Of a stretch of DNA of 44,959 nucleotides, positions 13,515-31,715 are shown piece by piece. This DNA is from a virus. The notes under the pieces are model-generated. The model did not search any database and was not told the origin of the DNA. It saw only the letters and a program-made list of their open reading frames with translations. Where the stretch lies: positions 1 through 44,959 of the IMG/VR virus record IMGVR_UViG_3300028548_003250, one strand, 5' to 3'. Within the stretch, counting starts at the first letter, position 1, and each line of letters opens with the position of its first letter. Made by a program: the position numbers and the translations under genes.

Positions 13515-15092
13515 TTAAATACCTTTTAATAAGATTGATGTTGTTGATAATGCTTTACCTACTTCTACAGATGGATCATCTGCGTTTGATCCCAAAGTTC
13601 CATCATTTTGAGCATAGTATGTAGTTCCTGCTGTTAATCCAGAAAGATTGGTTGCAATTCCCCCTTCTAAATTCAAAGTTGCCGTAGCAGTGTCTGCGTA
13701 AGCTGCACTTGAAATACCAATGAAATTAGTTGTTGTAAGATTGGTGGAACTTGTTGCTATAGTAGTAGGTATTTGACCGCATACCATTCTGCCTCTACTA
13801 CCATCTCCTGCGTCACTATATTTATATATAAATCTACCAGCTTGCAAGGGTGAAAACTCCAAAGAAACATAAGTATGATTACCTGCAACAGTAGTACCAG
13901 AATATAAATCACCTAACGTAACAGTAGTACCAGAAACTGACGCTTTCCTTATTTTACATTTAGGATGCGAAGCACCCCAACTAAAGTATTGGATAAGTAA
14001 TGAGCCAGCTGTGTCTGTTGGATGAAAACGTGCTGTACCAGCGTTAATGTTTTCTGATACAAAAGTAACTGCAGATCCTAAAGTTATAGTTGTACCACTA
14101 GCAGTTCCTGCTCGTATGTAGCCATAGCCAGTATCATCCTGCTTATATGTACTAACAAAACTACCCGCTGTTTGTGGATCCCATGAATGAGCAGTTCCGT
14201 CGTTTGGAAGGTAGGCATACCCACTTGTAGACACTTGTACAGAACTTCCAAAACTAAGAGTAGTCCCATTAACTGTACCAATAATAGCGTGAACTTGGGC
14301 TGCTGAAAAAGTGACTAGAAATCGCCCTGCTGTATTTGGGTCAAACGATATTGCAGGATTGTTACAAACTGATGTCTTAAAAACAGTTTTAGTACCAAAT
14401 GTAAGCACTCCATTAGCAGCAATAGTAGCTGCTCTGCACGTACCGTAAGAAGAGTTTGATTGATCAACATAACTAAACACTAATGATCCTGCGGTATTTG
14501 GATCAAATGATACTGATGGAGTAGTAGCTGTTCCTGTGTTGATTAAAAACTCACTGCCAACACTAAAATCAGTTCCACTGACTGTGCCTACTGCGCCACC
14601 TAAATGCCATGTACTGCTTCCATCAACATAAACAAAAACTATTTGATCAGCGTTGTTAGGGTTCCAAGCAACACCCTCGTAGTGAGTACTGGGTGCACTG
14701 TTAACTGGCCTCTCAGTTCCAAAAGAAATAGCATTACCAGTAATCTGACCAAGAACCGCTCTAGCAACCAAAGAGGCTGGATGATCTCTAAAGACAACAA
14801 CAAACTTTCCCGCTACTGTAGGAGAAAAAGCTACCGAATTAAATGATGTCTGACCATTGTTAAAAGTGTACACACTTCCGTCAGGAATAGTTGTGGTTCC
14901 AGTAGTTGTACTAGAAACAGTATTACCTGCCTCAGTCACAGTTCCATCAGAATTTAATATTAAAACTGTGCCGTCAGCCAGCGCTCCTGAAGCCACAAAA
15001 GTAGCTTGCCCACCTACACTATCAGAATATTTTTCTGCCTTAACTGAGCCGTCTGAGCCTAGTAACGTTGCTAAATTTCTTGCTTTACTCAT
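13515..15092 (-). CDS. Tail fibre: stand-alone seven-repeat propeller module
   Basis: 525 residues. It begins MSKARNLATLLGSDGS, a start seen in phage fibre proteins. Then comes a strand motif (FVASGALADGTVLILNSDGT), seven repeats of about 48 residues spanning about 80-430 (typical repeat: VSFDPNTAGSLVFSYVD, then a strand G-x-A, then VSGTTVTLG), and a cap of about 75 residues (FIGISSAAYADTATATLNLE to the C-terminus). The same order of motif, seven repeats and cap occurs four times in the giant fibre upstream. Seven repeats suggest one closed beta-propeller, probably for receptor or glycan binding. The start overlaps the preceding gene by eight bases. Confidence 0.72.
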   Translation of the reverse strand: MSKARNLATLLGSDGSVKAEKYSDSVGGQATFVASGALADGTVLILNSDGTVTEAGNTVSSTTTGTTTIPDGSVYTFNNGQTSFNSVAFSPTVAGKFVVVFRDHPASLVARAVLGQITGNAISFGTERPVNSAPSTHYEGVAWNPNNADQIVFVYVDGSSTWHLGGAVGTVSGTDFSVGSEFLINTGTATTPSVSFDPNTAGSLVFSYVDQSNSSYGTCRAATIAANGVLTFGTKTVFKTSVCNNPAISFDPNTAGRFLVTFSAAQVHAIIGTVNGTTLSFGSSVQVSTSGYAYLPNDGTAHSWDPQTAGSFVSTYKQDDTGYGYIRAGTASGTTITLGSAVTFVSENINAGTARFHPTDTAGSLLIQYFSWGASHPKCKIRKASVSGTTVTLGDLYSGTTVAGNHTYVSLEFSPLQAGRFIYKYSDAGDGSRGRMVCGQIPTTIATSSTNLTTTNFIGISSAAYADTATATLNLEGGIATNLSGLTAGTTYYAQNDGTLGSNADDPSVEVGKALSTTSILLKGI

Positions 15093-15462: not shown

Positions 15463-16779
15463 TTAACTAGTTGGGAATGCGGCAGTTGGTGGGGTGAAGT
15501 CAGCCGAATACCTACCAACACCGTTGGTTATTCTAAGATCATCAATGTAACTATCTATAGTATTACCGCTTTGGGTGTATGCCTTGCCTATACCTATGCT
15601 TGTATTTTGAGGCGCGAAATTTAGATTACTAGTAAACGCATGACCAACACCGTTAAGGAAGAATTTCATTGAACTACCTTGTCTTGAAACTGCCATGTGA
15701 TGCCATGTATTCAATGCAACATCACTTTGGGCAATAGGATTACTGATATAAGAAGTTCCTGAAGAATCTTCAATGGCAATACCGCCACTTGCCATAAACA
15801 TAAACTGAAAACCACCACTCCATTGCGCTATTAATTTGGTATATGAACTCCACGCAGTGGGGTATATCCAAAATTCCCAAGTAAAGTCTGTTGATGTTCC
15901 GTAATTCATATCTATACCTGAAGCTGGTACATAGAATGCATCACCTTGTGTTGATAAATCTATACTAGAACCACCAAATTTACTAATTGATGTTGAAACT
16001 GTAGGTGTACCTACTTTTGTAATGGTATTTGCAACTGAACTTAAATCTGTGAAAACAGAACTACCATTAGCGCCTGCACCTTGTAACAGTAGGGTAACAT
16101 TAGCCCAGTGAGGATCTGCTACATATACAGGTATAGTGGCGGAACTATTGGAAGCAATAGTAGCTGAGCCTAGTGCATTAGTGGCTGTCACAACACATTT
16201 TAGTGTGTTTGTCTCATCATCTGTAACTATCGTGTATGTATTATTTGTTGCGCCAGCAATATTAGATGCCCCTCTCTGCCATTGATATGTAAATGCAGGG
16301 GCTGGTGTGCCTGTCCACGTTCCATTTGAGGTTGATAGAGTGTTGCCAGTAGTTGCTGTGCCACTTAGTGCAGGAGCTACTGTATTTGCAAGAGCTACAT
16401 ATCCAAGTAAGCTGTGTACTTCTGCCTTTGTATAAAAGTTGTCTGAAGTGGATGCGTTTGAACCTAGAATTAATTGCACCTCATCAGCAAGATCAAGTGC
16501 TGGGGTAAATGTGACTGACGTACCATTGGTTGCTGTAAAGTCTGAACCCAACAACATCTTAGCCCCGTTAATATAACAATCTATACTGCCAACAAAATAA
16601 GTAAGCCCTGTTTTAGTCGCTTGGTTTGCAGTAGCTGTAAATTCAACTCGATTAGATGTTACAGACCTAACCTTCCAAGCTGTGCCTGTCCAATCGTAGA
16701 GCAAACCATTGATAACCAGCGAGTCACCAGAACTGGGAGAAGATGGAAAGCCACCTGATGTGTATACGTAATCTGTCAT
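15463..16779 (-). CDS. Tail fibre with Ig-like and LamG/concanavalin-like domains
   Basis: 438 residues. Residues 1-40 (MTDYVYTSGGFPSSPSSGDS, then a Y-x-W-x-GT-x-W motif) are nearly the same as the start of the giant fibre just upstream, so both probably dock to the same tail site. Residues about 135-215 look like an Ig-like repeat (FTYQWQRGASNIAGA; LKCVVTATNALGSA). Residues about 222-435 form a LamG-like jelly roll: FTWEFWIYPTAW, NTWHHMAVSRQGSSMKFFLN and YIDDLRITNGVGRY are classic LamG_3 phrases. Such lectin folds bind carbohydrates, so this is a likely receptor-binding fibre, a shorter alternative to its giant neighbour. Confidence 0.75.
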   Translation of the reverse strand: MTDYVYTSGGFPSSPSSGDSLVINGLLYDWTGTAWKVRSVTSNRVEFTATANQATKTGLTYFVGSIDCYINGAKMLLGSDFTATNGTSVTFTPALDLADEVQLILGSNASTSDNFYTKAEVHSLLGYVALANTVAPALSGTATTGNTLSTSNGTWTGTPAPAFTYQWQRGASNIAGATNNTYTIVTDDETNTLKCVVTATNALGSATIASNSSATIPVYVADPHWANVTLLLQGAGANGSSVFTDLSSVANTITKVGTPTVSTSISKFGGSSIDLSTQGDAFYVPASGIDMNYGTSTDFTWEFWIYPTAWSSYTKLIAQWSGGFQFMFMASGGIAIEDSSGTSYISNPIAQSDVALNTWHHMAVSRQGSSMKFFLNGVGHAFTSNLNFAPQNTSIGIGKAYTQSGNTIDSYIDDLRITNGVGRYSADFTPPTAAFPTS

Positions 16780-16791
16780 TTCTACTGCCCC

Positions 16792-19700
16792 TTAAACTGC
16801 ATATCTAATTATTACAATACCTGAGCCGCCAGATCCAGATGGTACAGCTGGAGGGTTTTCGTTAGTAGCTGAGCCTCCGCCACTTCCTGTATTAGTTAAC
16901 CCTGATACTGCTGATGCGCCTGTTGCCGCTCCTGCACCACCGCCTCCTGTTCCACCTAATCCTCTTAATGCACCCTGACTTGTTGCACCAGCACCACCGC
17001 CTCCAGCTCTGACCACTGCAGATCCTGTAATATTTGAGCTTGTTCCATCACCACCAGAACCTGATTGAGATCCTACACCATTGCTTCCAGCACTATTAGA
17101 ACCTCCACCACCGCCTCCAGCGTATGGACTTGATGTTACTGCGTTACCGCCATTAGTACCTTGCCCACTAGTACCAGAACCACCTGCAAGTGTACCACTA
17201 CCACCACTAGCTCCTGACCCAGAACCACCTGCAACGCCTCCTCCTATTGCTGCTTTTGCGCCACCTAACGAAATAATATTAGTAGCTATAGAGGAATTAC
17301 TGCCCTGAACACCATCAACATTATCAGCGTTTGCTCCAGCTCCACCTGCTCCAATTGTTATAGTGTAATTAGCTACACTCAAACTCAATACAGATTCAGC
17401 TGATGAAGCTCCACCAGAATTTTGTCCTACTACGCTAGATCTATAACCGCCAGCACCTGCTCCACCACCACGATTTCCCCCAGCTGCAGAACCACCACCT
17501 CCTCCAACAACTAAGTATTCAAAATCTCCTGCTGAAGTTACAGAAAAAGTACCAGATGAAGTAAATGTATGTATTTTATGAGTAGCTGTAGTTGTTATTG
17601 TTCCACCTGTAGCAGATGTTGTGCTTGGTACAGTAGAAGTTATCTGTTCCCAAGCAGTGCCATTACTGACATATAGGTCAGTTGTATCTGTTTTGAAGAA
17701 CAATGATCCAGCAGCTGTAACAGGGTCAGGCAACGTGGTACCTGTGGGCGTACCTGAAGACACAGTGCTATTTGCTGCTCCTTTGTCTAACCAAGCACTG
17801 TCTGTACCATCCGACAGGTATTCATAAAGAACACCTTGAGAAGTATCAAACCACTGCTGTCCTTGGGCTGGTGAAGTGGGGGCTGATGCTTGGCTTATTA
17901 AGACTAAGGCGGGTGTTCCAGCTGCTCCAGCACTTCCATTAGTACCGTCAGTACCATCTGTACCATCGGTTCCGTTAGTGCCATTAGTACCTGCTTCACT
18001 TGTTAGAAGTAAAGTAGTGGCAGACAAAGCTCGGCCTGCCTCTACGCTAGGTGTTCCAGCAGTAGTAGAAATAGCACCGTTAGTCTGAACATAATATGTT
18101 GAGTTAATAGTCAAACCAGATTGGTTATTTGCAACGCCACCAGCTAAGACAATGGAAGATGTAGCTCCATCAGCATAAGCTGCTGAGGACACACCTATAA
18201 AGTTATCTGCGGTTAGGTTGGTTGCTGGACTTGTTTCTGTGGATAATCGGTTTAATACTGCGGTACCTTGGGCTGAGTTACTGTTATCCATAAAGACAGT
18301 GATGAAATCACCGTCTGTATTTGGGTCAAATGCTATATCAGCTCCATAGAGAGTAGTTGCATGGAATGAAATCTTAGAGCCAAAAGTAATAGTGGTTCCT
18401 GAAACTGTTCCTAAGTTTGCTGTACCAAAGTTATTATTAGGATCATTGTACATAACAACAAACTTACCAGCATTGAAAGGATCGAAGGCTACTGCTGTAT
18501 TTTGGGTAGAAGATGTATTAAAAATAGCTTCATTTCCAAAGGTAGCAGAAGTACCTGAGATAGTTCCTACTTTGGCCTTACCTTTATGTGCATCTACATA
18601 ATCTTTATAGGCTACAACAAACTGACCAGATGTATTAGGGTCAAAAGATATTGATAAGTGCTCGGAACGACCATTTACAAATACATCTTTAGAACCCCAA
18701 CTAATAGTATTTCCAGTAACAGTTCCTACTACAGTCTTAGCAGTAGCAGTGGTTCTATACATTACAACTAACTTACCCGCATTATTGGGATCGTAAGCTA
18801 CAACTGCTTCATCTGGAGTTCCTGTATCATTAAAGTAACTATCACTACCAAAACTAATAGTATTTCCACTGACAGTACCTATGTATGTCGCAAAAGAAGT
18901 ACCTCTTATAAATGTTACAACAAACTTACCTGCAGTGTTGGGGTCAAAAGATATACTGTGACGGCTCTGATTTAAATATGAATCGAATACAACCACAGTG
19001 CCAAGAGTAATAGTGGTTCCAGAAACAGTACCTAAAACAGCAGAGCTGTATCCATTGTTACCTACGCCCGGATAAGTTACGACAAACTTATTTGCGTTGT
19101 TGGGGTCAAACGCTATTGCTATATTCTCTGTAGACCCTGCATTAAATTTAATTGCAGTACCAAAAGTAATAGTAGTTCCACTGACAGTACCTATTACAAC
19201 GTAGCCGTGGTTAGCTGCTGAGTTGTCCCTATAACCTACAACAAACTTACCTGCATTATTAGGATCATGCGATACCGACATAAGATCGCAACCTGCCGCA
19301 GAAAAGCGAGCTAAAGCACCTGCAGGTATAGCTTGTGGATTACCTGTAGTTACCATGCCAGCAGCTTGTACAGTTCCATCCGTTTTTAGTATTACAGGAG
19401 TTCCATTTGATAACGCTCCTGAAGCTACAAAGTCACGAACACCTCCGACTCCATCAGACCCATCTGTTCCGTTTGTACCGTTAGTACCATTGGTTCCGTT
19501 AGTGCCGTTAGTGCCGTTAGTGCCATCTGTACCGTCAGTTCCAGCAGCACCAGTAGCACCAGTAGCACCAGCCTCACTTGTTAACAATAGAGAAGTAGCT
19601 GATAAAGCTCTGCCTGCTTCAACACTAGGGTTTCCAGCAGTAGTGGAAATAGTGCCATTGGTTTGCACATAATAAATTAAATTGGTTGTTAAGCCTGATT

Positions 19701-22700
19701 GGTTAGAAGACACTCCTCCCGCTAGCACTATAGAAGCTGTGTCTGCATCTACATAAGCTGCTGAAGACATACCTATAAAATTGTCTGCAGTTAAATTAAT
19801 GCTTGTTACTGTTGCGGCTATTTGACCTACTGTTGCTTTACCACCACCAGATCCATATACAACTACAAATTTACCTGAGCCAGAAGTGTTAGGATCAAAA
19901 GCAATTTCTCCATGATTGTGAGTAGATGAAAGAAATACATACTCGCTACTGTAACTTATTGAAGTGCCTGATATTGTTCCTATAACAATTGTTCCGTAAT
20001 TTGAATTACTTACATCCTTATATTTAACAACAAACTTATTAGCGTTGTTAGGATCAAAGGCCATTTGAACGTATTGAGTGTTTCCTGAATTAAATGTGTA
20101 TTCAGATCCAAAACTTACCGAATTTCCTGATACTGTTCCAACCAGTGATTTACCAATGTATGCACTATTGCTATAAGCAATTGCAAATTTATTAGCTGTG
20201 TTTGGATCATATGCTATATCAGACCACCCTCCACCAGTGCCATATACATAAGCACTACCATAGCTAATTGAAGTACCTGATACTGTTCCTACTTTAACTT
20301 TATTTTGACCTGCAGAAAGATAACCTAGTACAAATTTTCCCGCTGTATTAGGGTCAAAAGATATTTGCAAGTAAGCTGGGGAACTTCCTGTAGTAAATGT
20401 ATATTCACTTCCGTAGCTAATAGAAGTTCCTGATATAGTTCCTATTACTGTTTTTGCTTCGCTTGAATCTTCATAATCTCTAAAACAAACTGCAAATTTG
20501 CTGGCTGTATTTGGATCAAAAGAAATGCCAAACCAAGCAGCATTGCCTGAACTAAATGCAAGCTTGGTTCCAAAGCTAAGTGAAGTACCTGAAACAGTAC
20601 CTACAATTGCTGTGCCAAATCTATTAGTAGGCATATTTGATTCGTCTTTATAAACGATCACAAATTGATTAGCTGTATTAGAGTCAAATGCTACGAATGG
20701 AATAGAAGCTTTACCAGTGTTAAATACATATTCACTGCCGAAGCTAATATCAGTCCCATTTAAAGTTCCAACGGCTGCTGTGCCGTTATTTGAATTAGCC
20801 CCATCCATATATGAAACAACAAATCTATTCGCATTGTTAGGATCAAACGCTATAGAGGGATATGTAGTAGCAGATGCTGAGTTATAACTAAACACAGTGC
20901 CAGCTAAACCATCAGACAAATTATTGGTAACTATTTTAACTGCTTCTACAGTTCCGTCACTTTTTAAAATAACAGGAGTTCCGTTTGGCAAAGTGCCTGT
21001 AGCCACAAAATCTTGTACACCACCTACCCCATCTGCTCCTGCTGCTCCCGCACTTCCATTAGTACCGTTAGTTCCATTAGTGCCATTAGTACCGTTAGTG
21101 CCGTTAGTACCATCAGTGCCATCAGTGCCGTTAGTACCACTAGTTCCAGCTTCACTAGTAAGAAACAACGATGTAGCAGATAACGCTCGTCCTGCTTCTA
21201 CACTAGGATTGCCAGCAGTAGTAGAAATAGTACCGTTAGTCTGAACATAATATGTTGAGTTAGTAGTAAGCCCTGTTTGATTAGAAGAAACTCCTCCTGC
21301 AAGAACAATAGAAGCTGTTGCTCCATCTGAATATGCTGCTGTAGATGTGCCTATAAAATTATCTGCAGTTAAGTTTGGTGATGCTGCTTGAGCTACTTGA
21401 CCCAATCTAACGTCAACTGATCCTTGCGACCCATTCTCAGTTCTAAAAATAGTTATAAAGTTTCCATTTACATTGGGGTCAAAAGCAACATCTGTATACC
21501 CTGTAATTGAGCTAGAATAATAAGGACTAGCACCGCTAGTGTTTACTATATTAAAAACAGATCCCAAAGATACTGAGTTTCCAGACACTGTGCCTATAAC
21601 TGCTACGGGGTAACGACCTGTTGATAGTTGATTTCTATGAACTGCCAAAAATTGGCCAGCAACAAAAGGATTAAACTCAACAGAATTGTAATACCCACTG
21701 TAACTGCCAGTTGGAATAGTTAATTTAGATCCTAAAGTAATAGAGTTACCAGAAATAGTACCCGCTTTTAATTGAGGCCCAGTAGAGCTATCAGGGCTAA
21801 CTACAACAAAACTATTTGGAGTGTTTGAATCTAAAGCTAAGTCATATTCAGGATGCGCCCCAGTAAGAATAGAAGCCACTGAGCCAGTAGTAATGCTGGT
21901 ACCTGATACTGTTCCTACTACACCACTGATAATAGATTGGCCACCATTCATGAAAGTATGAACAAATTTTCCTGAGCCACTGCCATCAAATTTAATTCTG
22001 TGCATACCAGTATTAGCAGAGTGTGAAACATGAGGAGTGCCATAAGTAATTGTAGTTCCAGAGACTGTTCCTAATATTGTACTAGCGTAGTAACCGTTAG
22101 CTAAATCTGTGTAAGCTATAACAATATTGCTTGTGCTTGGAACAAAAGCAAGCGACCATCCATTTTGATTTGATGAAGTAAATCCAACTGGTGTGCCCAT
22201 CGTAATAGACGTTCCAGAAATTGTACCTACAACAGACCTGCTGCCCGAAATACCAACAAACTTATTTGCGGTAACAGGATCAAAAGCAATTATTGGTTCA
22301 TAATTGTAACCAGCTATAAAATCAACAGTAGTACCAAAGCTTATGGTTGTTCCAGATACTGTGCCTACAACGACTTTTGTTCCACTACCACCCTTATAAG
22401 CGAATAAAAATTTATTAGCGTTATTGGGATCAAAAACTACATTAAAACTTTGATGAGTTTCGCTTCGTATAAGACGACCTGCTAAATAATTAGCTGGTGT
22501 TCCTGCAATAGTCACCGCTGCTACAGTGCCATCAGATTTAAGAATAACGGGAACTCCGTTTGACAACGTACCTGTTGCTACAAAGTCACGAACACCTCCA
22601 ACTCCATCAGAGCCATCAGTACCATTAGAACCGTCAGTACCATTTGTGCCATCGGTACCATTAGTTCCATTGGTGCCGTTAGTTCCATTTGTTCCATTAG

Positions 22701-24465
22701 TGCCGTTTGTTCCATCAGCTCCAGCGGGGCCAGAAAGTAATAAAGTCGTAGCATTTATTGCAAGACCTGCTTCAACTGAAGGCGTTCCTTCAGAAGTACC
22801 TAGCGTTCCATCACCTTGTACGTAATAACGATTTCCTGCTGTAAGACCAGATTGATTATCGCTAACACCACCTTTAAGAATAATAGATGCCGTTTGACTA
22901 TTTGTGTAAGCTGCTGATGAAATTCCAACGTAACTTAAAGACGTTAAATTTGTCTGCTCTTGTGGCAAACCTATTTGACCTAACCTGACTGCTCCTAGTG
23001 ATGAATTAGCTGCGTCTTTATAAGCTACAGCAAACTTACCTGAACCAAGAGGATCTATGGCAATACTTGTGTTTCCGCCATAACTAGCTAAAACGTATTC
23101 AGAACTAAAAGATAAACTTGTACCTGAAAGTGTTCCAACAATAGCTGTTCCAGCATTTCCGTTGCTATTGTCCATATAAGTAATAACAAATTTACTATTT
23201 GTAGAAAAAGCTATTTGAGGGGTCTCAACAGTGGATGGATTCCATGTAACGGCAGATCCAAAACTTATGGCAGTTCCTGCCAAAGTAGCAACCCTTGCTG
23301 CACCATGTTTAGCTCCACCAAAAAGGTTAGAAATTACAAACTTACCAGAATTAGGGTCATACGCTATTCGATTGTGTTTGTTGTACTGGCTGTCATATAC
23401 ATACTTAGAAGCGTAAGTTATGGTTGTGCCAGAAATATTTCCAACCATTGCTGTGCCGTAGCTTGAATTACTGTCGTCCTCAAATGCCAAAACAAATTGG
23501 CCTGAAACCGCATTATTAAAAGCTAAAGTAATATCGTCAGTTGACCCAGAATTAAATATTTGGGGAGAGCCAAAAGTAACTGAAGTTCCAGAAAGTGTAC
23601 CAACAATTACATATCCATTACTTCCAGTCTCATAACTAATTACAAACTTGCCTGAGTTATTAGGATCAAAAGCAATATTCTCGTAACTAGTAGAAGCGTT
23701 ATTAAACTGTACTGGCGATCCAAAGGTAACACTTGTTCCAGAAACAGTTCCTACAATGACTTCGCCTGTTGTGGTACTTGAGCCGTATGTGTAAGTAACA
23801 ACAAATTTAGTTGAGTCATTTGGGTCAAATGCCACCCAAGTAGATTCAGGACTTGGTTTAGTATTACTACTTGCCCTGAATATTACAGGCGTTCCAAAAC
23901 TTATAGAAGACCCTGAAACTTGTCCCATTACCGCCATGCCATTAACAACAAGATCGTCTTTATATACAATTACAAACTTACCTACATTGGTGCCGTCAAA
24001 TGCAACTTGACTCTCTTGAATTCGATTTGTAGGAGAGAATAAGGCAGATGCGCCTAATGGAACAGTATCAGCAGGTGTAGTTGTCCCTATACTAACGGCT
24101 TCTACAGTGCCGTCTGCTTTTAAAACAACAGTAGCTCCGTTAGGTAATGTGCCGCTAGCTACAAAATCTCTAACACCGCCTACTCCATCTGCACCGTTGG
24201 TACCGTTTGTGCCATCAGAACCATTTGTGCCGTTAGTTCCATTTGTTCCATTGGTGCCATCCGTACCATTGGTGCCATCCGTACCATCCGTACCATCCGT
24301 ACCTGCTCCACCTGCGGCTCCCGTAGCACCAGTTGGGCCAGCGGGTACAGCAGTAGCTATCCAAGTAGTACCATTCCAACTGTATTGAGCAGAATTAATA
24401 GTTAATGTATCACCAGATACGGGTGATGATGGAAAACCACCTGATGTGTAAACGTAAGCTGTCAT
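16792..24465 (-). CDS. Giant modular tail fibre: four propellers, collagen-like linkers, Gly-rich tip
   Basis: 2557 residues in one uninterrupted frame. Order: docking motif (1-40); collagen-like Gly-Thr-Asn/Asp triplets (about 43-97); then four units each made of a strand motif (FVASGTLPNGATVVLKADGT type), seven repeats of about 48 residues, a cap of about 75 residues and the next collagen-like stretch. The seven-repeat blocks span about 145-495, 665-1018, 1202-1550 and 1725-2073. After the fifth collagen stretch (about 2155-2183) comes a segment shared with the 378-residue neighbour (EYLSDGTDSAWLD), then a Gly-rich C-terminus (about 2300-2557, YLVVGGGGGSAAGG to GSGGSGIVIIRYAV). Collagen-like triplets trimerise phage fibres, and Gly-rich tips bind receptors in other phages. 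The propeller fold is my inference from the count of seven in every block. Confidence 0.78.
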   Translation of the reverse strand: MTAYVYTSGGFPSSPVSGDTLTINSAQYSWNGTTWIATAVPAGPTGATGAAGGAGTDGTDGTDGTNGTDGTNGTNGTNGTNGSDGTNGTNGADGVGGVRDFVASGTLPNGATVVLKADGTVEAVSIGTTTPADTVPLGASALFSPTNRIQESQVAFDGTNVGKFVIVYKDDLVVNGMAVMGQVSGSSISFGTPVIFRASSNTKPSPESTWVAFDPNDSTKFVVTYTYGSSTTTGEVIVGTVSGTSVTFGSPVQFNNASTSYENIAFDPNNSGKFVISYETGSNGYVIVGTLSGTSVTFGSPQIFNSGSTDDITLAFNNAVSGQFVLAFEDDSNSSYGTAMVGNISGTTITYASKYVYDSQYNKHNRIAYDPNSGKFVISNLFGGAKHGAARVATLAGTAISFGSAVTWNPSTVETPQIAFSTNSKFVITYMDNSNGNAGTAIVGTLSGTSLSFSSEYVLASYGGNTSIAIDPLGSGKFAVAYKDAANSSLGAVRLGQIGLPQEQTNLTSLSYVGISSAAYTNSQTASIILKGGVSDNQSGLTAGNRYYVQGDGTLGTSEGTPSVEAGLAINATTLLLSGPAGADGTNGTNGTNGTNGTNGTNGTDGTNGTDGSNGTDGSDGVGGVRDFVATGTLSNGVPVILKSDGTVAAVTIAGTPANYLAGRLIRSETHQSFNVVFDPNNANKFLFAYKGGSGTKVVVGTVSGTTISFGTTVDFIAGYNYEPIIAFDPVTANKFVGISGSRSVVGTISGTSITMGTPVGFTSSNQNGWSLAFVPSTSNIVIAYTDLANGYYASTILGTVSGTTITYGTPHVSHSANTGMHRIKFDGSGSGKFVHTFMNGGQSIISGVVGTVSGTSITTGSVASILTGAHPEYDLALDSNTPNSFVVVSPDSSTGPQLKAGTISGNSITLGSKLTIPTGSYSGYYNSVEFNPFVAGQFLAVHRNQLSTGRYPVAVIGTVSGNSVSLGSVFNIVNTSGASPYYSSSITGYTDVAFDPNVNGNFITIFRTENGSQGSVDVRLGQVAQAASPNLTADNFIGTSTAAYSDGATASIVLAGGVSSNQTGLTTNSTYYVQTNGTISTTAGNPSVEAGRALSATSLFLTSEAGTSGTNGTDGTDGTNGTNGTNGTNGTNGTNGSAGAAGADGVGGVQDFVATGTLPNGTPVILKSDGTVEAVKIVTNNLSDGLAGTVFSYNSASATTYPSIAFDPNNANRFVVSYMDGANSNNGTAAVGTLNGTDISFGSEYVFNTGKASIPFVAFDSNTANQFVIVYKDESNMPTNRFGTAIVGTVSGTSLSFGTKLAFSSGNAAWFGISFDPNTASKFAVCFRDYEDSSEAKTVIGTISGTSISYGSEYTFTTGSSPAYLQISFDPNTAGKFVLGYLSAGQNKVKVGTVSGTSISYGSAYVYGTGGGWSDIAYDPNTANKFAIAYSNSAYIGKSLVGTVSGNSVSFGSEYTFNSGNTQYVQMAFDPNNANKFVVKYKDVSNSNYGTIVIGTISGTSISYSSEYVFLSSTHNHGEIAFDPNTSGSGKFVVVYGSGGGKATVGQIAATVTSINLTADNFIGMSSAAYVDADTASIVLAGGVSSNQSGLTTNLIYYVQTNGTISTTAGNPSVEAGRALSATSLLLTSEAGATGATGAAGTDGTDGTNGTNGTNGTNGTNGTNGTDGSDGVGGVRDFVASGALSNGTPVILKTDGTVQAAGMVTTGNPQAIPAGALARFSAAGCDLMSVSHDPNNAGKFVVGYRDNSAANHGYVVIGTVSGTTITFGTAIKFNAGSTENIAIAFDPNNANKFVVTYPGVGNNGYSSAVLGTVSGTTITLGTVVVFDSYLNQSRHSISFDPNTAGKFVVTFIRGTSFATYIGTVSGNTISFGSDSYFNDTGTPDEAVVAYDPNNAGKLVVMYRTTATAKTVVGTVTGNTISWGSKDVFVNGRSEHLSISFDPNTSGQFVVAYKDYVDAHKGKAKVGTISGTSATFGNEAIFNTSSTQNTAVAFDPFNAGKFVVMYNDPNNNFGTANLGTVSGTTITFGSKISFHATTLYGADIAFDPNTDGDFITVFMDNSNSAQGTAVLNRLSTETSPATNLTADNFIGVSSAAYADGATSSIVLAGGVANNQSGLTINSTYYVQTNGAISTTAGTPSVEAGRALSATTLLLTSEAGTNGTNGTDGTDGTDGTNGSAGAAGTPALVLISQASAPTSPAQGQQWFDTSQGVLYEYLSDGTDSAWLDKGAANSTVSSGTPTGTTLPDPVTAAGSLFFKTDTTDLYVSNGTAWEQITSTVPSTTSATGGTITTTATHKIHTFTSSGTFSVTSAGDFEYLVVGGGGGSAAGGNRGGGAGAGGYRSSVVGQNSGGASSAESVLSLSVANYTITIGAGGAGANADNVDGVQGSNSSIATNIISLGGAKAAIGGGVAGGSGSGASGGSGTLAGGSGTSGQGTNGGNAVTSSPYAGGGGGGSNSAGSNGVGSQSGSGGDGTSSNITGSAVVRAGGGGAGATSQGALRGLGGTGGGGAGAATGASAVSGLTNTGSGGGSATNENPPAVPSGSGGSGIVIIRYAV

Positions 24466-24480
24466 TCTAATAAGCCTCGA

Positions 24481-26226
24481 TTAAATTCTAACTTGTATCG
24501 TAGTTGCATTAACCGCAATACCAACAAAAACTGAAGAAGCAACTTTAGTAGAAGTTACAGTGGCATCCTGTTGGACGTAATGTTTTGCTCCAATAGTCAA
24601 TCCAGAAAACCCTCCAAGTTGTCCAGAATACTGTACAGCTTTAGTGTCACCTGTTGATCCTGTGGCAGTTACAAAGCCCATAACCTTGTCAACACTAAGA
24701 CTAGATACTGGTGCTTTTGCATGTTGGTTTAATATCGCGCCCCCTGTTCCTTCCATAAGTGAGAGATATTTTCCAGTTGCGCCTAAATTAACTAGCATGG
24801 GGTAGCTACCGTTAGCTAAACTAACCCCATTTCCACTAATAGTTTTAGAGACAAGTGTTGTCGGTGCAGTTATTTCTAATCCATCTAAAGTACATGCACC
24901 TATAAAATTAGTACCTATAACAACAGAAGTCTTGTTAAAAGGACTAAAAGCTATATTTGATATGTACTCACTCGTTTCGAGAGAAAGTGCCGTATTTCCA
25001 CCTACTGTTGTTTCAGACCAATTAAAAGCGGTACCTACTGCGACTGTGCCACTACCGCTACTAGTAACAGATCCAACAACAAAATCAGCTCTATCATGAG
25101 CCGATGCGCCAGTTAATCCATTAACCAAGAGTCCAAATCTATAGCCAGTAGTGGAGTCGCCATTAGGTTCCCATGCAAAACCTTTAGCTCGAAAGTAAGC
25201 TGTTCCTGCATCTCCCATGACTACTTCAGTGCCCAGAGTAAGTGAATTATCCGCATTAACATCTGCTACTCTTGCTTTAGAACCACCATTTTGACCATAA
25301 AGTAATAAAATTTTAGAGCCGTCATCTGGAAAAAACTCACCAATGTGTGAGTTTGCAGTGTCAGCGCCAATAGATGTTGTGGACAGTGTAGTAAAAGAAG
25401 TGTTTGAATCTAAATTACAATACTTAATCTCGTTACTAGCTCTATTAGTAATAATGAACCTACCAGATACAGTCGGATGTAAACTTAATGTTCCCCAGTT
25501 GTAACCAGTAGAAGTCGAAAATGTCCCTAACTGTGTCATAGTTGTGCCGCTAACACTCCATCTTGTAATACCTGATCCGCTGTACCCAGCCCTATGCCAA
25601 AGAACTCCGTCATTAACAGGATCCCATACCAGATCATGATGTCCTCCAGCTCCAGCAGCATAGCCAGCTTGTAGATCTGATCCCCAACTTACTGATCCGT
25701 CTGCTGCAACAAGTCCTACAATAACTCTCGCATCGCCGCCCATAACAACTGCAAATCTATTAGTGTTTGATGGGTCTACTGCTGCGTGGCACGCATGGCC
25801 TGTTTGGTTAGACTGACCAGCTGGGTAAATGGTATTTGTCATAAGGCTAGCTGTTATAGACGCACTTTGAGTAATAGCCTCAATCTTACCCGTAGAATCT
25901 ATCTGAGCTATTTGGTTTGCTGTCATGTTGCCAGCAAGTTCAAAATTATCTACACCTGATGCCGCTCCCCAAACAGGATTAGCCCCAGCACCACCACTTT
26001 TTAAGACTTGACCTGATGCACCTGCTGCCAACCGAGCTGGGCCAGTAGCATTTCGGTACAACACATCACCGTGTGCAGTAAGAACAGATGTTAAGCTGCT
26101 ACCTACGGTGGTAATTGCTTCTGCTGCTTTACCTAAAAGTAATAATTCTTTAGCTGCTGTCGAGCCTGTAGTTGCATTAAGTGCTGTCTGCAAGCTTGCT
26201 TCGACTGTAGTGGTATTGATGGTCAT
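24481..26226 (-). CDS. Tail fibre with diverged seven-repeat propeller
   Basis: 581 residues with a GGAG ribosome site. The N-terminal 120 residues are helical and then fibre-like (HGDVLYRNATGPARLAAG). A motif FELAGNMTANQIAQIDSTGK corresponds to the strand motif opening each propeller unit of the neighbouring fibres. Seven diverged repeats follow (for example VDPSNTNRFAVVMGGDARV and IAFSPFNKTSVVIGTNFIG), then a cap variant ending VGIAVNATTIQVRI. It is therefore an older paralogue of the module in the giant fibre. Likely a proximal or alternative fibre. Repeat count was made by eye and the fold is inferred. Confidence 0.66.
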   Translation of the reverse strand: MTINTTTVEASLQTALNATTGSTAAKELLLLGKAAEAITTVGSSLTSVLTAHGDVLYRNATGPARLAAGASGQVLKSGGAGANPVWGAASGVDNFELAGNMTANQIAQIDSTGKIEAITQSASITASLMTNTIYPAGQSNQTGHACHAAVDPSNTNRFAVVMGGDARVIVGLVAADGSVSWGSDLQAGYAAGAGGHHDLVWDPVNDGVLWHRAGYSGSGITRWSVSGTTMTQLGTFSTSTGYNWGTLSLHPTVSGRFIITNRASNEIKYCNLDSNTSFTTLSTTSIGADTANSHIGEFFPDDGSKILLLYGQNGGSKARVADVNADNSLTLGTEVVMGDAGTAYFRAKGFAWEPNGDSTTGYRFGLLVNGLTGASAHDRADFVVGSVTSSGSGTVAVGTAFNWSETTVGGNTALSLETSEYISNIAFSPFNKTSVVIGTNFIGACTLDGLEITAPTTLVSKTISGNGVSLANGSYPMLVNLGATGKYLSLMEGTGGAILNQHAKAPVSSLSVDKVMGFVTATGSTGDTKAVQYSGQLGGFSGLTIGAKHYVQQDATVTSTKVASSVFVGIAVNATTIQVRI

Positions 26227-27377: not shown

Positions 27378-27650
27378 TTATGCGTCCTTAACTTTTACTT
27401 TAAAGTTCACTTCTTTAGTTCGACCCTGACTTGTGTCCACCGTGACAGAAACTATGTAGCTCTTTTTGTCCACGCCAGCAGCAACCCAAACTTTAGGTAT
27501 GATCGTAGCGGCATCAGTAACATAAATGGTTAAACCAGCAGGAGTAGAACTAGTTACAGTGGTTACTATCGCGTCCCCAGTAGGAAGCCAATTAGTAAAA
27601 TCAATGTCATAGTCCAATCTCTCAGTCGGCTGTTTGGTATACGTTTCCAT
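27378..27650 (-). CDS. Fibre-tail adaptor-like small beta protein
   Basis: 90 residues. The pattern RLDYDIDFTNWLPTGD, a central Ig-like strand run and a C-terminal GRTKEVNFKVKVKDA matches small phage proteins, described as fibre-tail adaptors, in which an Ig-like sheet follows a YDIDW/F-type opening. It lies two bases upstream of the cupredoxin-like fibre gene and after the large Ser/Ala-rich protein, which suits a connector between tail and fibres. No catalytic motif. Family assignment is from recalled pattern, not a search. Confidence 0.6.
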   Translation of the reverse strand: METYTKQPTERLDYDIDFTNWLPTGDAIVTTVTSSTPAGLTIYVTDAATIIPKVWVAAGVDKKSYIVSVTVDTSQGRTKEVNFKVKVKDA

Positions 27651-27662
27651 AAATATCTCTCT

Positions 27663-30600
27663 TTAAGCTGCATCGACAAAAATTATTCTAATTTCTGCTT
27701 CTGCAATGAATTCTCTATCTGGAGCTTCGACTGTGATTGATCTATCTTCTGCTTCGACCAGTATGAGAATGCCGTTGCTTCGGCTACCTTCTTGGGCGAC
27801 TATCGCAAAGCCGTTAACAAAATTAGCTTGTGCATTAACTGAAGTGCTACTAACAATCTTTAGGATGGAAGGCGTTGCAGTTAAATCTGCAGATGAATTT
27901 AAGTCTGCGGAGGCTGAGTTAACTCCAAGACCAACAACCGCAACTGAAGCTTGGGCGACAACATTAGCCTTGCCGTATCTCTGGTAATCTGCATCAGCGG
28001 AGATTAACGCTTGAGAGGTCACTCCAAACTCTGCAAACGGGGTTACATGAGATGCAGAGACAATGGCTCCGCTTCCAACAAAATCACCCTGTCCATGGAC
28101 GTTAAGTTGGTAATCTAATAAGACAGACGCACTAGCAATAACGTCAGCTTGAACATGAACAAGAAGAACGTCTGTGGCTAATACTGATGAAGATGCGCTG
28201 GCATGAGCTTCTCTCCAAGCGTAAACGCGGAAGTCACTAGCAGACAACTCTGAACTGGCGGTAAAGTCAGCACGACCAACGCGTGAATAATCACCCGCTG
28301 ATATAGTGACGCTGCTTCCGTTAAATGTTCCTTGTGCGTTGGCGGTATTAACTGCACTTTCTACAACCTGTGCGTCTGCAGTAATGCTGTTAGAAGTAGC
28401 AAAGACTGCAATAAAGGTGTCACTGGTAGTGTTAGCACTTGCTGTGATAACGGACGATGCAGGTGACTCAACATACTGAGACCCAGAAGCAGAAGCGGTT
28501 GCGTCTACTTGACCCTGAACAAAGGATTCGACATTTGCAGAAGCGACTGCGTTGGAACTAGCATTAACCTCTGCGCGAACACGGACAATACCGTTACCAG
28601 CCGAGATAGTAATACTACTGCCTGTAAACGCGCCTTGGGCGTTAGCTGTGTTAACTGCAGTTGAGCTAGCGTTGGCATAGGCATAGAGCTGTACAGATGT
28701 AAATACAGTGCAGTCAGCAGTAACATATGCTGAAGGTGAAGTTCCAGTGAAAACAAAGACCGCTGGATGTGTAGTAGTAACTCTTCTCTTAATAGAGCCA
28801 TTGTAACCACGTAGTCCATCTCTATAAGCAACGCCACTTAAACTAGTAACATATGAAGTTCCTGCTGCTGCTCCTGCATTTAATGTGTTTCGTATCGTAG
28901 CAATATAATTATTGCCACTATAAGTAGTTTCACTATAAGGAGCTATGCTTTCCCATATACCAGTAATAACAAGTTCTTGACCGTCATCACGTTCCCAATA
29001 TGCGGCAGCTAAAAAGTCCTCAGTAGTATCGTAGCTAGGCGCTGTATAACCTGTGTCCGTAACAGGGGCAGAAGCTATTATTAACCTCTGTCCAACAGCT
29101 GTTGTGGTAGAGCTTGAAGAAATAGAGGCTTGTACTAGGTGAACAATTGAGGCACTTGCAGCGACTGAGCTAGAGGCTGCAAAGGTTCCAACTTCAGTAT
29201 ATAGGGTGTGGCTACCTGCGCTTGCATCTGTAGAAGCACTGGCACTTACACTGGCAGTACAGAAAACTAGGCCATGCGTAACGGGTGTCGAAGTAACCCC
29301 AGCACTGGCACTTACAGCTGCGCTAGCCGAAGATAATATAAATACGTCAGTTGTTAACTGGGCTGACCCAGTTGGGTAAGCAAAACTGCCAGTCAGTACG
29401 GAGCATTCTGCAACTATAGAAGCTGTTGGTTGGAATCCTGTTTGAGTAGTAACCGCTGGATGGTTCGTTGCATGAGTAGTAACTGTGTCTTCTAATATCT
29501 TATAGGAAGCAGCAGAATGGTTTACTCTAACTGAACCCATGCCACCAATGTTTACAAACTGCTGGTGACTGGCATAGCCAATCGAGGCACCTTTATATCT
29601 AGTGCCTCCTAAACTTCCAACTGCAGATCCATTATTACCCCAAGTGGAGTATTCCGTAGGTGCAGTAGAATTTTGATATTGGCTAGCAAAAGTCCAATCA
29701 TAATCTGCGCCTTGATACAAAGCGTAGACATCAAACAAAACTCCAGAGAAATAATGTGGGGTACCGCCATTGTCAACTACAGATCTAAATGAGGGTACAG
29801 GACTGTAGCGGCCTATCTCAGCCGTGGTAGTTGTGTCATGGTAAGAAGTATAAGCAGCAACCGTAGTATATTGGTCAGAAACAAGTGCTATGGCTTGGAC
29901 TGGGGTCTCTACTATTGCCGAACTAGCAACAGAGGCATTACAAGCAGCGGTTGCTTGGGCATTACTATCATTTCTTGCTACGCCAGATAAACTAGCATAA
30001 CACTCAACCAAAGCATGTCCGACTGAAATTTTATTGCTAATTGATATAGAAACAGCAAAGCTGGAGATTGATGCAGAAACATCAATGTAGTTGCCTGCAC
30101 TTCCATTGGTTTGAGCTGTACAAGTTATACCAGCACTAGCGTCAACTACGCTTCCAGAAGAAGCTGATACTATAGCGCTTGCCGTTACCTGTGCCTCACC
30201 AGATGCAACCTTAGAAGCAGTTGCGCTAGATTGAGATGAGCAACTAGCATTTGCTTCAGCCGATGATTTAGTTATGCAGACAGAAGTGGCTGTTGCTGAT
30301 GCTGTAAACTGAGCATGGCCTACTGAAATCTTATTGCCGACAGATATAGAAAGAGCAAAGCCTGAAACCGAAGCTGATACATCAATAATTCTAGAAGCTG
30401 AAGAGTCTACAGAACTAGAAGCGATAACCGAAGATGAAACAAAATGGTCAATGTTTGGAGATGTGCTTACTAAGGCTGTGCTTGTTATAGAGGCATTTGC
30501 GTGAGAAAAGATTTCTGCTGAAACATCTGCAGCACTGACTACAGAAATTGCTCCACCCATTCCTGAGTGGTAAAGACAAAAATAGTAAAGACTGGCTGGT

Positions 30601-31715
30601 GTTGAGTCACTTACTGTTAAAGATATAAATGATCCAGCTTGCCCTTGAGTACCAGTAACAGTTACACCGTTACTAATCCCGCTAAATGTAGTTCCGCCAC
30701 TATGAGTTCCATTGCTAGTTGTGCTGAATCGTAGAGGATGGGAACTCAGACTGGAGTCTGACAAATCGAATGTGTAAGTAGAACCAGATCTTAAAGTTAA
30801 AGACTTATTGGACTGACCATCAATGACAAGGTTGCCACCTGCGGCAGTAACAATAAGTGTTTGGGTATCTGATTTTGATATTGAACTACTAGCAATGACA
30901 CTAGCATTAACACTGTGAGTAACATTTGATGCCACACTAACAATAGCTTGGGCATTAAGTTGTGCAGAAACAAACAACCCTGTTGATCCATCTGCACTTA
31001 CTTGGGCACTTGCAACTATGGTCGTGTGGGCAACTGCCCGTTTTTCACCGACTGATATGGCTAAACTTGAGCCAGTAAATACGCCAGAAGCCCTAGAAAT
31101 AACGTGGCTAGAGGATGACAGTGTGCTTGAGGCTGTAACTGTTGCGGCCAAATCACGCAAGCAGTGTGCTGAAGAGTTAACCTCAGCTTGTGCTGTGGCA
31201 TTAGCAGCAGCATTAGATTCGATTGAGGCAGCAGATGAACATACAGCCGAAGCAGTAATGCCAGTTGCCGAAACAAAGATGACCCCACCTGAGTTAGCAG
31301 TGAAGCGGGCGTCTGCTTGTAATGAAGCAGTCGCAAAGGCCACCCTTGATCCAAGAGCAACAACCGAACCTAAAGCCGCAACACTTGCGACTGCTTGATG
31401 TGTAACAATAGCATTAGCAGCACTATTTGCTGCACACACTATTTCAGCGTTACTAAACTTAACCCTATGCCCATCTACGTTTGCAGCGGCTGAACAACCC
31501 ACTGAGGCAGTCGCCCTTGCAAAACGAACCACAGATTGAGTGGTCGTTAATGCAACTGAATTGATTGCAGATGCAACCGCATGTGAGTGAAGGATAGCTT
31601 GAGCAGAAACACTGGCTCCCGTACTAAATGATCCCGCACCCTCATGCACCTCTGCCGAAGCAGAGACAGTGCTTTGTACGCCAATGGCGTGTGTATTGAG
31701 GGCCGAGAAATTCAT
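27663..31715 (-). CDS. Large Ser/Ala-rich repeat virion protein with cupredoxin-like insert
   Basis: 1350 residues, very rich in Ser, Ala, Val and Thr. It is built of short strand repeats (ASAxVxASA) and longer recurring units such as GSSITISAGN and ALSISVGNKISVGHAQF, seen about five times, suggesting a beta-solenoid. Residues about 290-395 are a cupredoxin-like insert (SSHPLRFSTTSNGTH; YYFCLYHSGMGG) with candidate ligands His326, Cys380, His383 and Met386. Two larger aromatic-rich inserts lie near 625-770 and 930-1060. The C-terminus (NGILILVEAEDRSITVEA) is distinct and charged. It starts directly after the stop of the preceding gene. Likely an elongated tail or whisker component; role inferred from position. 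Confidence 0.6.
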   Translation of the reverse strand: MNFSALNTHAIGVQSTVSASAEVHEGAGSFSTGASVSAQAILHSHAVASAINSVALTTTQSVVRFARATASVGCSAAANVDGHRVKFSNAEIVCAANSAANAIVTHQAVASVAALGSVVALGSRVAFATASLQADARFTANSGGVIFVSATGITASAVCSSAASIESNAAANATAQAEVNSSAHCLRDLAATVTASSTLSSSSHVISRASGVFTGSSLAISVGEKRAVAHTTIVASAQVSADGSTGLFVSAQLNAQAIVSVASNVTHSVNASVIASSSISKSDTQTLIVTAAGGNLVIDGQSNKSLTLRSGSTYTFDLSDSSLSSHPLRFSTTSNGTHSGGTTFSGISNGVTVTGTQGQAGSFISLTVSDSTPASLYYFCLYHSGMGGAISVVSAADVSAEIFSHANASITSTALVSTSPNIDHFVSSSVIASSSVDSSASRIIDVSASVSGFALSISVGNKISVGHAQFTASATATSVCITKSSAEANASCSSQSSATASKVASGEAQVTASAIVSASSGSVVDASAGITCTAQTNGSAGNYIDVSASISSFAVSISISNKISVGHALVECYASLSGVARNDSNAQATAACNASVASSAIVETPVQAIALVSDQYTTVAAYTSYHDTTTTAEIGRYSPVPSFRSVVDNGGTPHYFSGVLFDVYALYQGADYDWTFASQYQNSTAPTEYSTWGNNGSAVGSLGGTRYKGASIGYASHQQFVNIGGMGSVRVNHSAASYKILEDTVTTHATNHPAVTTQTGFQPTASIVAECSVLTGSFAYPTGSAQLTTDVFILSSASAAVSASAGVTSTPVTHGLVFCTASVSASASTDASAGSHTLYTEVGTFAASSSVAASASIVHLVQASISSSSTTTAVGQRLIIASAPVTDTGYTAPSYDTTEDFLAAAYWERDDGQELVITGIWESIAPYSETTYSGNNYIATIRNTLNAGAAAGTSYVTSLSGVAYRDGLRGYNGSIKRRVTTTHPAVFVFTGTSPSAYVTADCTVFTSVQLYAYANASSTAVNTANAQGAFTGSSITISAGNGIVRVRAEVNASSNAVASANVESFVQGQVDATASASGSQYVESPASSVITASANTTSDTFIAVFATSNSITADAQVVESAVNTANAQGTFNGSSVTISAGDYSRVGRADFTASSELSASDFRVYAWREAHASASSSVLATDVLLVHVQADVIASASVLLDYQLNVHGQGDFVGSGAIVSASHVTPFAEFGVTSQALISADADYQRYGKANVVAQASVAVVGLGVNSASADLNSSADLTATPSILKIVSSTSVNAQANFVNGFAIVAQEGSRSNGILILVEAEDRSITVEAPDREFIAEAEIRIIFVDAA

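Follow-up and report, generated by a model that had tools for sequence, protein, structure and literature searches.

What kind of structure is built by a viral protein of 2557 aa that consists mostly of repeats and glycine triplets, and has such a structure been described? The question is raised by an unbroken minus-strand ORF at 16792-24465 of the IMG/VR virus record IMGVR_UViG_3300028548_003250. The record (44,959 bases, analysed in full and hereafter called the window) comes from a short-tailed phage known from metagenomic sequence alone. A first-pass annotation of this DNA had proposed a giant fibre of four seven-repeat units joined by collagen-like strings; the minus-strand orientation of the gene is added here. 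This study indicates that the protein probably serves an HMO-2011-like podovirus as a long, modular tail fibre, with four closed seven-bladed beta-propellers per chain, collagen-like rods and a Gly-rich tip.

Layout of the fibre protein

A repeat profile was built from 23 repeats and then iterated. It detected exactly 28 copies of a repeat of about 50 residues in the fibre protein, in four groups of seven (Table 1); the domain E-values range between about 1e-12 and 1e-25. The layout and the count read by eye in the first-pass annotation are thereby borne out. The repeat length given there, about 48 residues, was slightly too short, as the measured pitch is nearer 50-52, and the frames around the repeats had been missed. 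Each unit has an N-terminal frame of about 31 aa (DFVASGTLxNGxPVILKxDGTVEA) and a C-terminal frame of about 74 aa (NLTADNFIG...YYVQTNGTISTT...SLLLT). Between the four units, propeller identity is only 35-42% at the protein level and 49-54% at the DNA level, and the units are therefore not assembly duplicates. The frames, in contrast, are 55-88% identical. Fourfold-degenerate sites have diverged widely in frames and propellers alike; thus, selection, and not recent gene conversion, seems to have preserved the frames.

Table 1. Features of the fibre gene and of its neighbours in the window.
Feature	Position	Strand	Basis or remark
Whole fibre gene	16792..24465	-	uninterrupted ORF, 2557 aa
N-terminal module, residues 1-42	24340..24465	-	common to next fibre gene 15463-16779 (phmmer)
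Gly-X-Y rod 1, 19 triplets, residues 43-99	24169..24339	-	triplet run, Pfam Collagen
Unit 1: N frame, seven repeats (residues 146-498), C frame	22732..24168	-	repeat profile
Gly-X-Y rod 2, 16 triplets, residues 579-626	22588..22731	-	triplet run, Pfam Collagen
Unit 2: framed, seven repeats (residues 668-1019)	21148..22587	-	repeat profile
Gly-X-Y rod 3, 15 triplets, residues 1107-1151	21013..21147	-	triplet run, Pfam Collagen
Unit 3: framed, seven repeats (residues 1194-1552)	19570..21012	-	repeat profile; AlphaFold2 and Foldseek target
Gly-X-Y rod 4, 15 triplets, residues 1633-1677	19435..19569	-	triplet run, Pfam Collagen
Unit 4: framed, seven repeats (residues 1721-2075)	17992..19434	-	repeat profile
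Gly-X-Y rod 5, 9 triplets, residues 2159-2185	17911..17991	-	triplet run, Pfam Collagen
C-terminal tip, residues 2186-2557; Gly_rich_2 at 2302-2555	16795..17910	-	Pfam E 5.8e-16
Gp77-type podophage fibre-tail adaptor gene; heads fibre cluster, upstream of fibre gene	27378..27650	-	PF23148 E 1.8e-19
Neighbour gene, 581 aa, distant framed unit (probable propeller)	24481..26226	-	hhalign 97%, E 5.5e-11 against unit alignment
Second fibre-like gene (438 aa) with the N-terminal module of the fibre gene and a C-terminal LamG-type domain	15463..16779	-	Pfam, phmmer
Separate single-unit gene, 525 aa, seven repeats	13515..15092	-	repeat profile

Predicted fold and closure of the unit

Unit 3 was modelled with AlphaFold2 from an alignment of 62 sequences, taken from the window and IMG/VR loci only. 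The model is confident (mean pLDDT 93.3, pTM 0.86), and its strands track the repeats, four per blade. A Foldseek search of the PDB returned propellers, many of WD type, with Sec12 as the best match (E 3.5e-9; TM 0.72 normalised by target). Sec12 is a seven-bladed propeller. The unit is thus predicted to be a seven-bladed beta-propeller with four-stranded blades in a closed ring. An open solenoid was rejected on the confident propeller model, and another repeat number on the profile count together with the seven repeats found in relatives.

The phasing of the repeats shows how the ring closes. The repeats are joined by the pattern GTVSGTSISFG-S/T-xxx-F. Its SGTxISFG hairpin was present between repeats in 81% of cases, whereas it followed repeat 7 in 0 of the 178 seven-repeat units. 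The outer-strand motif stood directly before repeat 1 in 143 of the 178 units, against 4% in shuffles, at a position that corresponds to strand 49-52 of the model. This motif is loose and, in 56 of 178 units, also matched close to where repeat 7 ends; therefore, the absent hairpin is the stronger phasing evidence. Together, model and motifs show a velcro closure in which the strand missing from repeat 7 stands before repeat 1. Such closure is usual for propellers. The confident model, the WD-type neighbours in the PDB, this phasing and the fixed seven in relatives all support the closed propeller first proposed from a constant count of seven.

No WD40 profile in Pfam matched the fibre protein or the 62 unit sequences. 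Membership of the WD40 family by sequence was accordingly rejected, and the resemblance to WD-type propellers is one of fold only. Matches of Pfam PRY and Cyclophil_like2 to the repeats fell below the cut-off or covered few residues and were treated as spurious; the PDB yielded no useful match by sequence.

Collagen-like rods

Before, between and after the repeat groups lie five in-register Gly-X-Y runs, with 19, 16, 15, 15 and 9 triplets. The triplets GTN or GTD make up 45 of the 74, which agrees with the Gly-Thr-Asn/Asp strings noted at first pass, and Pfam Collagen matched five stretches of the protein (E 2.5e-12). Proline occurs in only 3 of 74 triplets, and the stability of a triple helix is therefore uncertain. 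The rods might then instead serve as flexible linkers, or form a glycine-rich helix of another kind, in a protein that works as a monomeric beaded chain; a four-unit relative on other linkers (L139, below) also fits this explanation. Against it, the triplet register is strict in all five rods, the Pfam Collagen profile matches at the E-value given above, and the collagen of related strings in two other loci (L044 and L007) is of a more classical phage type, e.g., GPAGPAGPAGADGADG and GIQGIQ. Moreover, the CD spectrum and shape of the prophage protein EPclA fit a triple helix (PMC3368898). We consider the linker explanation unlikely, and the fibre most likely trimerises through its Gly-X-Y rods. 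It is a reasonable inference that such a trimer would show twelve propellers. At 0.286 nm per residue the five rods sum to about 63 nm, although rod lengths could reflect short-tandem-repeat assembly; adding the four propellers and the tip gives a possible fibre length of about 85-95 nm.

Terminal modules

The N-terminal 42 residues recur on the 438-aa neighbour (phmmer E 2.6e-13) and on two proteins of the sister phage L001. This module had no match with a known attachment function; it is probably an attachment module. At the other end, the Gly-rich tip named in the first-pass annotation was recognised as Pfam Gly_rich_2 (PF21722; 59.6 bits against a cut-off of 24.3). The AlphaFold2 model of the tip had a pLDDT of 39.9, and the tip had no sequence match in the PDB. 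The S16 gp38-type adhesin, which is reportedly a polyglycine sandwich, may serve as a lead.

Fibre modules are shuffled, in the window within 15463-17910. A Gly-rich tip stands on a propeller string in the window and in L013 (8723-9724). In L001 it stands on a separate 436-aa fibre (15556-16866), whereas the 438-aa fibre of the window has LamG instead.

Genome context and place on the virion

The portal of the window is 32-33% identical to those of HMO-2011-like podophages. Together with the Gp77-type adaptor gene and the tail-fibre PHROG matches of neighbouring genes, it places the fibre gene within the tail-fibre cluster of a podovirus. With the clear seven-repeat unit at 13515-15092 and the distant one at 24481-26226, the virion gene cluster may code for six propellers in all. 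Another gene, at 27663-31715 on the minus strand, encodes a 1350-aa protein without a Pfam or PHROG match; its positional counterpart in L001 (4975-9102) has 1375 aa and many repeated Ala-Ser stretches.

Collagen-like segments and Hoc-like or LamG domains are also known in phage head proteins, and some PHROG matches of the fibre and of its neighbour are annotated "head and packaging". The protein could accordingly be a decoration fibre of the capsid or collar, by which virions adhere to cells or polymers, and not a tail fibre used in infection. We judge this quite improbable. The fibre-tail adaptor gene heads the cluster, the PHROG matches of the fibre protein are mostly tail fibre, and the strings of L044 and L007 match tail-fibre PHROGs outside the collagen, in their N-terminal parts. 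Further, a homologue is found in a cultured phage, Lentibacter phage vB_LenP_ICBM2. Its 515-aa protein (AYP28108.1), annotated as hypothetical, shares the framed propeller at the level of fold (BFVD E 4.2e-22, 20% identity), as a single unit without collagen. The gene lies between two tail-assembly-chaperone genes, in a region described by its discoverers as tail-fibre-encoding (PMC6775973). The adaptor gene just upstream and the locus of this homologue support a tail-fibre role.

Relatives of the unit

Neither Pfam nor PHROG has a family covering the unit, and a sequence comparison with 50,697 phage records matched it to a single unannotated marine record. A whole-protein scan of IMG/VR found a single relative, and unit alignments were needed for the rest. 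Scans with these alignments gave 52 loci and then the best 80 of at least 459 confirmed stretches; the family thus comprises at least 459 matching stretches in IMG/VR. Seven repeats were detected in 174 of 202 distinct framed units, which makes seven a property of the family. Fifteen units showed six repeats at the usual overall length (361-398 aa), so that one repeat probably fell below the threshold. Three units with fourteen repeats are doubles, and one with eight has a normal length and is probably a split match.

Among the complete genes of relatives, the single unit of about 480 aa predominates (147 of those tabulated); others are doubles of about 850 aa. Single-unit genes often occur two or three per locus. 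For example, L009, L010, L011, L008 and many others carry two or three in tandem with overlapping start and stop, suggesting several different propellers per virion. The doubles (L018 5476-8043, L021 3911-6427, L039 6816-9353 and L024 3686-6241) have two seven-repeat sets each, the second usually without an N frame of its own.

Besides the four in the window, collagen-linked units occur in L001, L044, L007, L025 and L013, and the string of the window is the longest found. L001, whose portal is 63% identical to that of the window, has one unit between two rods; L044 has three units in 2088 aa, L007 two in 1499 aa, and L025 one and the start of a second. The contigs of L044 and L025 carry a T4-type portal (E about 1e-106), and thus the collagen-strung design spans at least two phage lineages. 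The four-unit relative without collagen, L139 (PBTA01000007.1, 7388-14437), is a 2350-aa protein on a contig that was binned in a MAG labelled Euryarchaeota and may be viral. When 84,980 cell genomes were scanned, five loci emerged, some of them probably viral contigs in MAG bins. A cellular origin of the unit is therefore not supported. Fold matches in BFVD include giant-virus proteins, among them a Fadolivirus collagen-like protein and Pyramimonas orientalis virus proteins, perhaps through a convergent pairing of propeller and collagen.

Comparison with known fibres

The closest parallel was found outside phages. The eBAP3 fibres of extracellular contractile injection systems combine beta-propeller lectin domains with collagen-like shafts, as the window fibre combines propellers with its rods, and their authors stated in 2026 that this combination was yet undescribed in the phage literature (PMC12923769). 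These fibres belong to bacterial injection systems, not to phages, and have an eBAP3 anchor of about 200 aa and a TNFR-like C-terminal domain; the text consulted describes no string of four seven-bladed propellers such as that of the window (PMC12923769). An anchor of this size is unlikely at the N-terminus of the window fibre because only 42 residues precede rod 1.

Known phage proteins share single elements with the window fibre. The receptor-binding protein of the staphylococcal phages phi11 and 80alpha (gp45/gp61) is trimeric and includes a beta-propeller, the presumed binder of cell-wall teichoic acid; it has one five-bladed propeller per chain, an alpha-helical stem and tower domains, and no collagen string (PMC4901313, PMC7048315). 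The collagen-like part of 80alpha sits in a different protein, FibU. With seven repeats per unit, collagen rods and no tower, the window fibre was not assigned to this type. In the tectiviruses PR772/PRD1, the propeller-bearing receptor-binding protein P2 stands beside P5, a trimeric collagen-like stalk, but these are two proteins at the capsid vertex of a tailless phage, with one propeller and one short collagen motif (PMC6750898). EPclA of an E. coli prophage has a collagen-like rod that behaves as a triple helix in a phage fibre, whereas fibre proteins of its type have no propellers, other N- and C-terminal domains and proline-rich rods (PMC3368898).

The first-pass remark that no fibre of this architecture had been described thus holds among phage fibres in the open-licence literature, and fails for contractile injection systems, where the eBAP3 fibres provide a close parallel (PMC12923769). 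Considering the lack of a Pfam or PHROG family, the single matching phage record and the statement of the eBAP3 authors, the four-propeller string looks new among tail fibres.

Proposed function

Variability within the repeats is highest in the D-A and B-C loops and lowest in the C-D turn, with the A-B turn between. In propeller topology, the D-A and B-C loops lie on one face. The bottom of the unit is thus conserved and its top variable, a pattern that a binding face would be expected to show. Sialidases share this fold class, and sialidases and a GH74 enzyme were among the Foldseek propeller matches, so that the propellers might be enzymes, e.g., glycan-cleaving ones, rather than plain binders. 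This is very unlikely, as no enzyme family in Pfam matches the unit, the best fold matches are non-enzymatic WD-type propellers, and the variable loops appear to hold no conserved polar residues beyond the repeat pattern.

The likely function is multivalent, possibly multi-specific, surface binding. The N-terminal module would attach the fibre to the tail, possibly via the Gp77-type adaptor, and the Gly-X-Y rods would assemble the chains into a trimer. The variable top faces of the propellers may recognise surface molecules, most probably glycans; multivalent capture of cell-surface glycans would be the simplest function. A flexible string that makes numerous weak contacts would catch sparse cells more readily, and the final specific contact may fall to the Gly-rich tip. 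More tentatively, and this may well not hold, the string could be a multi-specific adhesin in which the frames allow propellers to be duplicated, swapped and diversified, and each top face binds a different ligand; the bead family, whether in single units or in strings, would then be a general phage receptor-binding module across podo- and T4-like lineages. If this is true, one fibre could recognise several glycans or hosts at once.

In sum, the unit represents a large, widespread and apparently undescribed seven-bladed propeller family of phage fibres, which suggests how phages of several lineages may recognise their hosts. In its beads-on-a-string design, valency changes by adding propellers, and the fibre provides a phage counterpart to a design so far reported for contractile injection systems.
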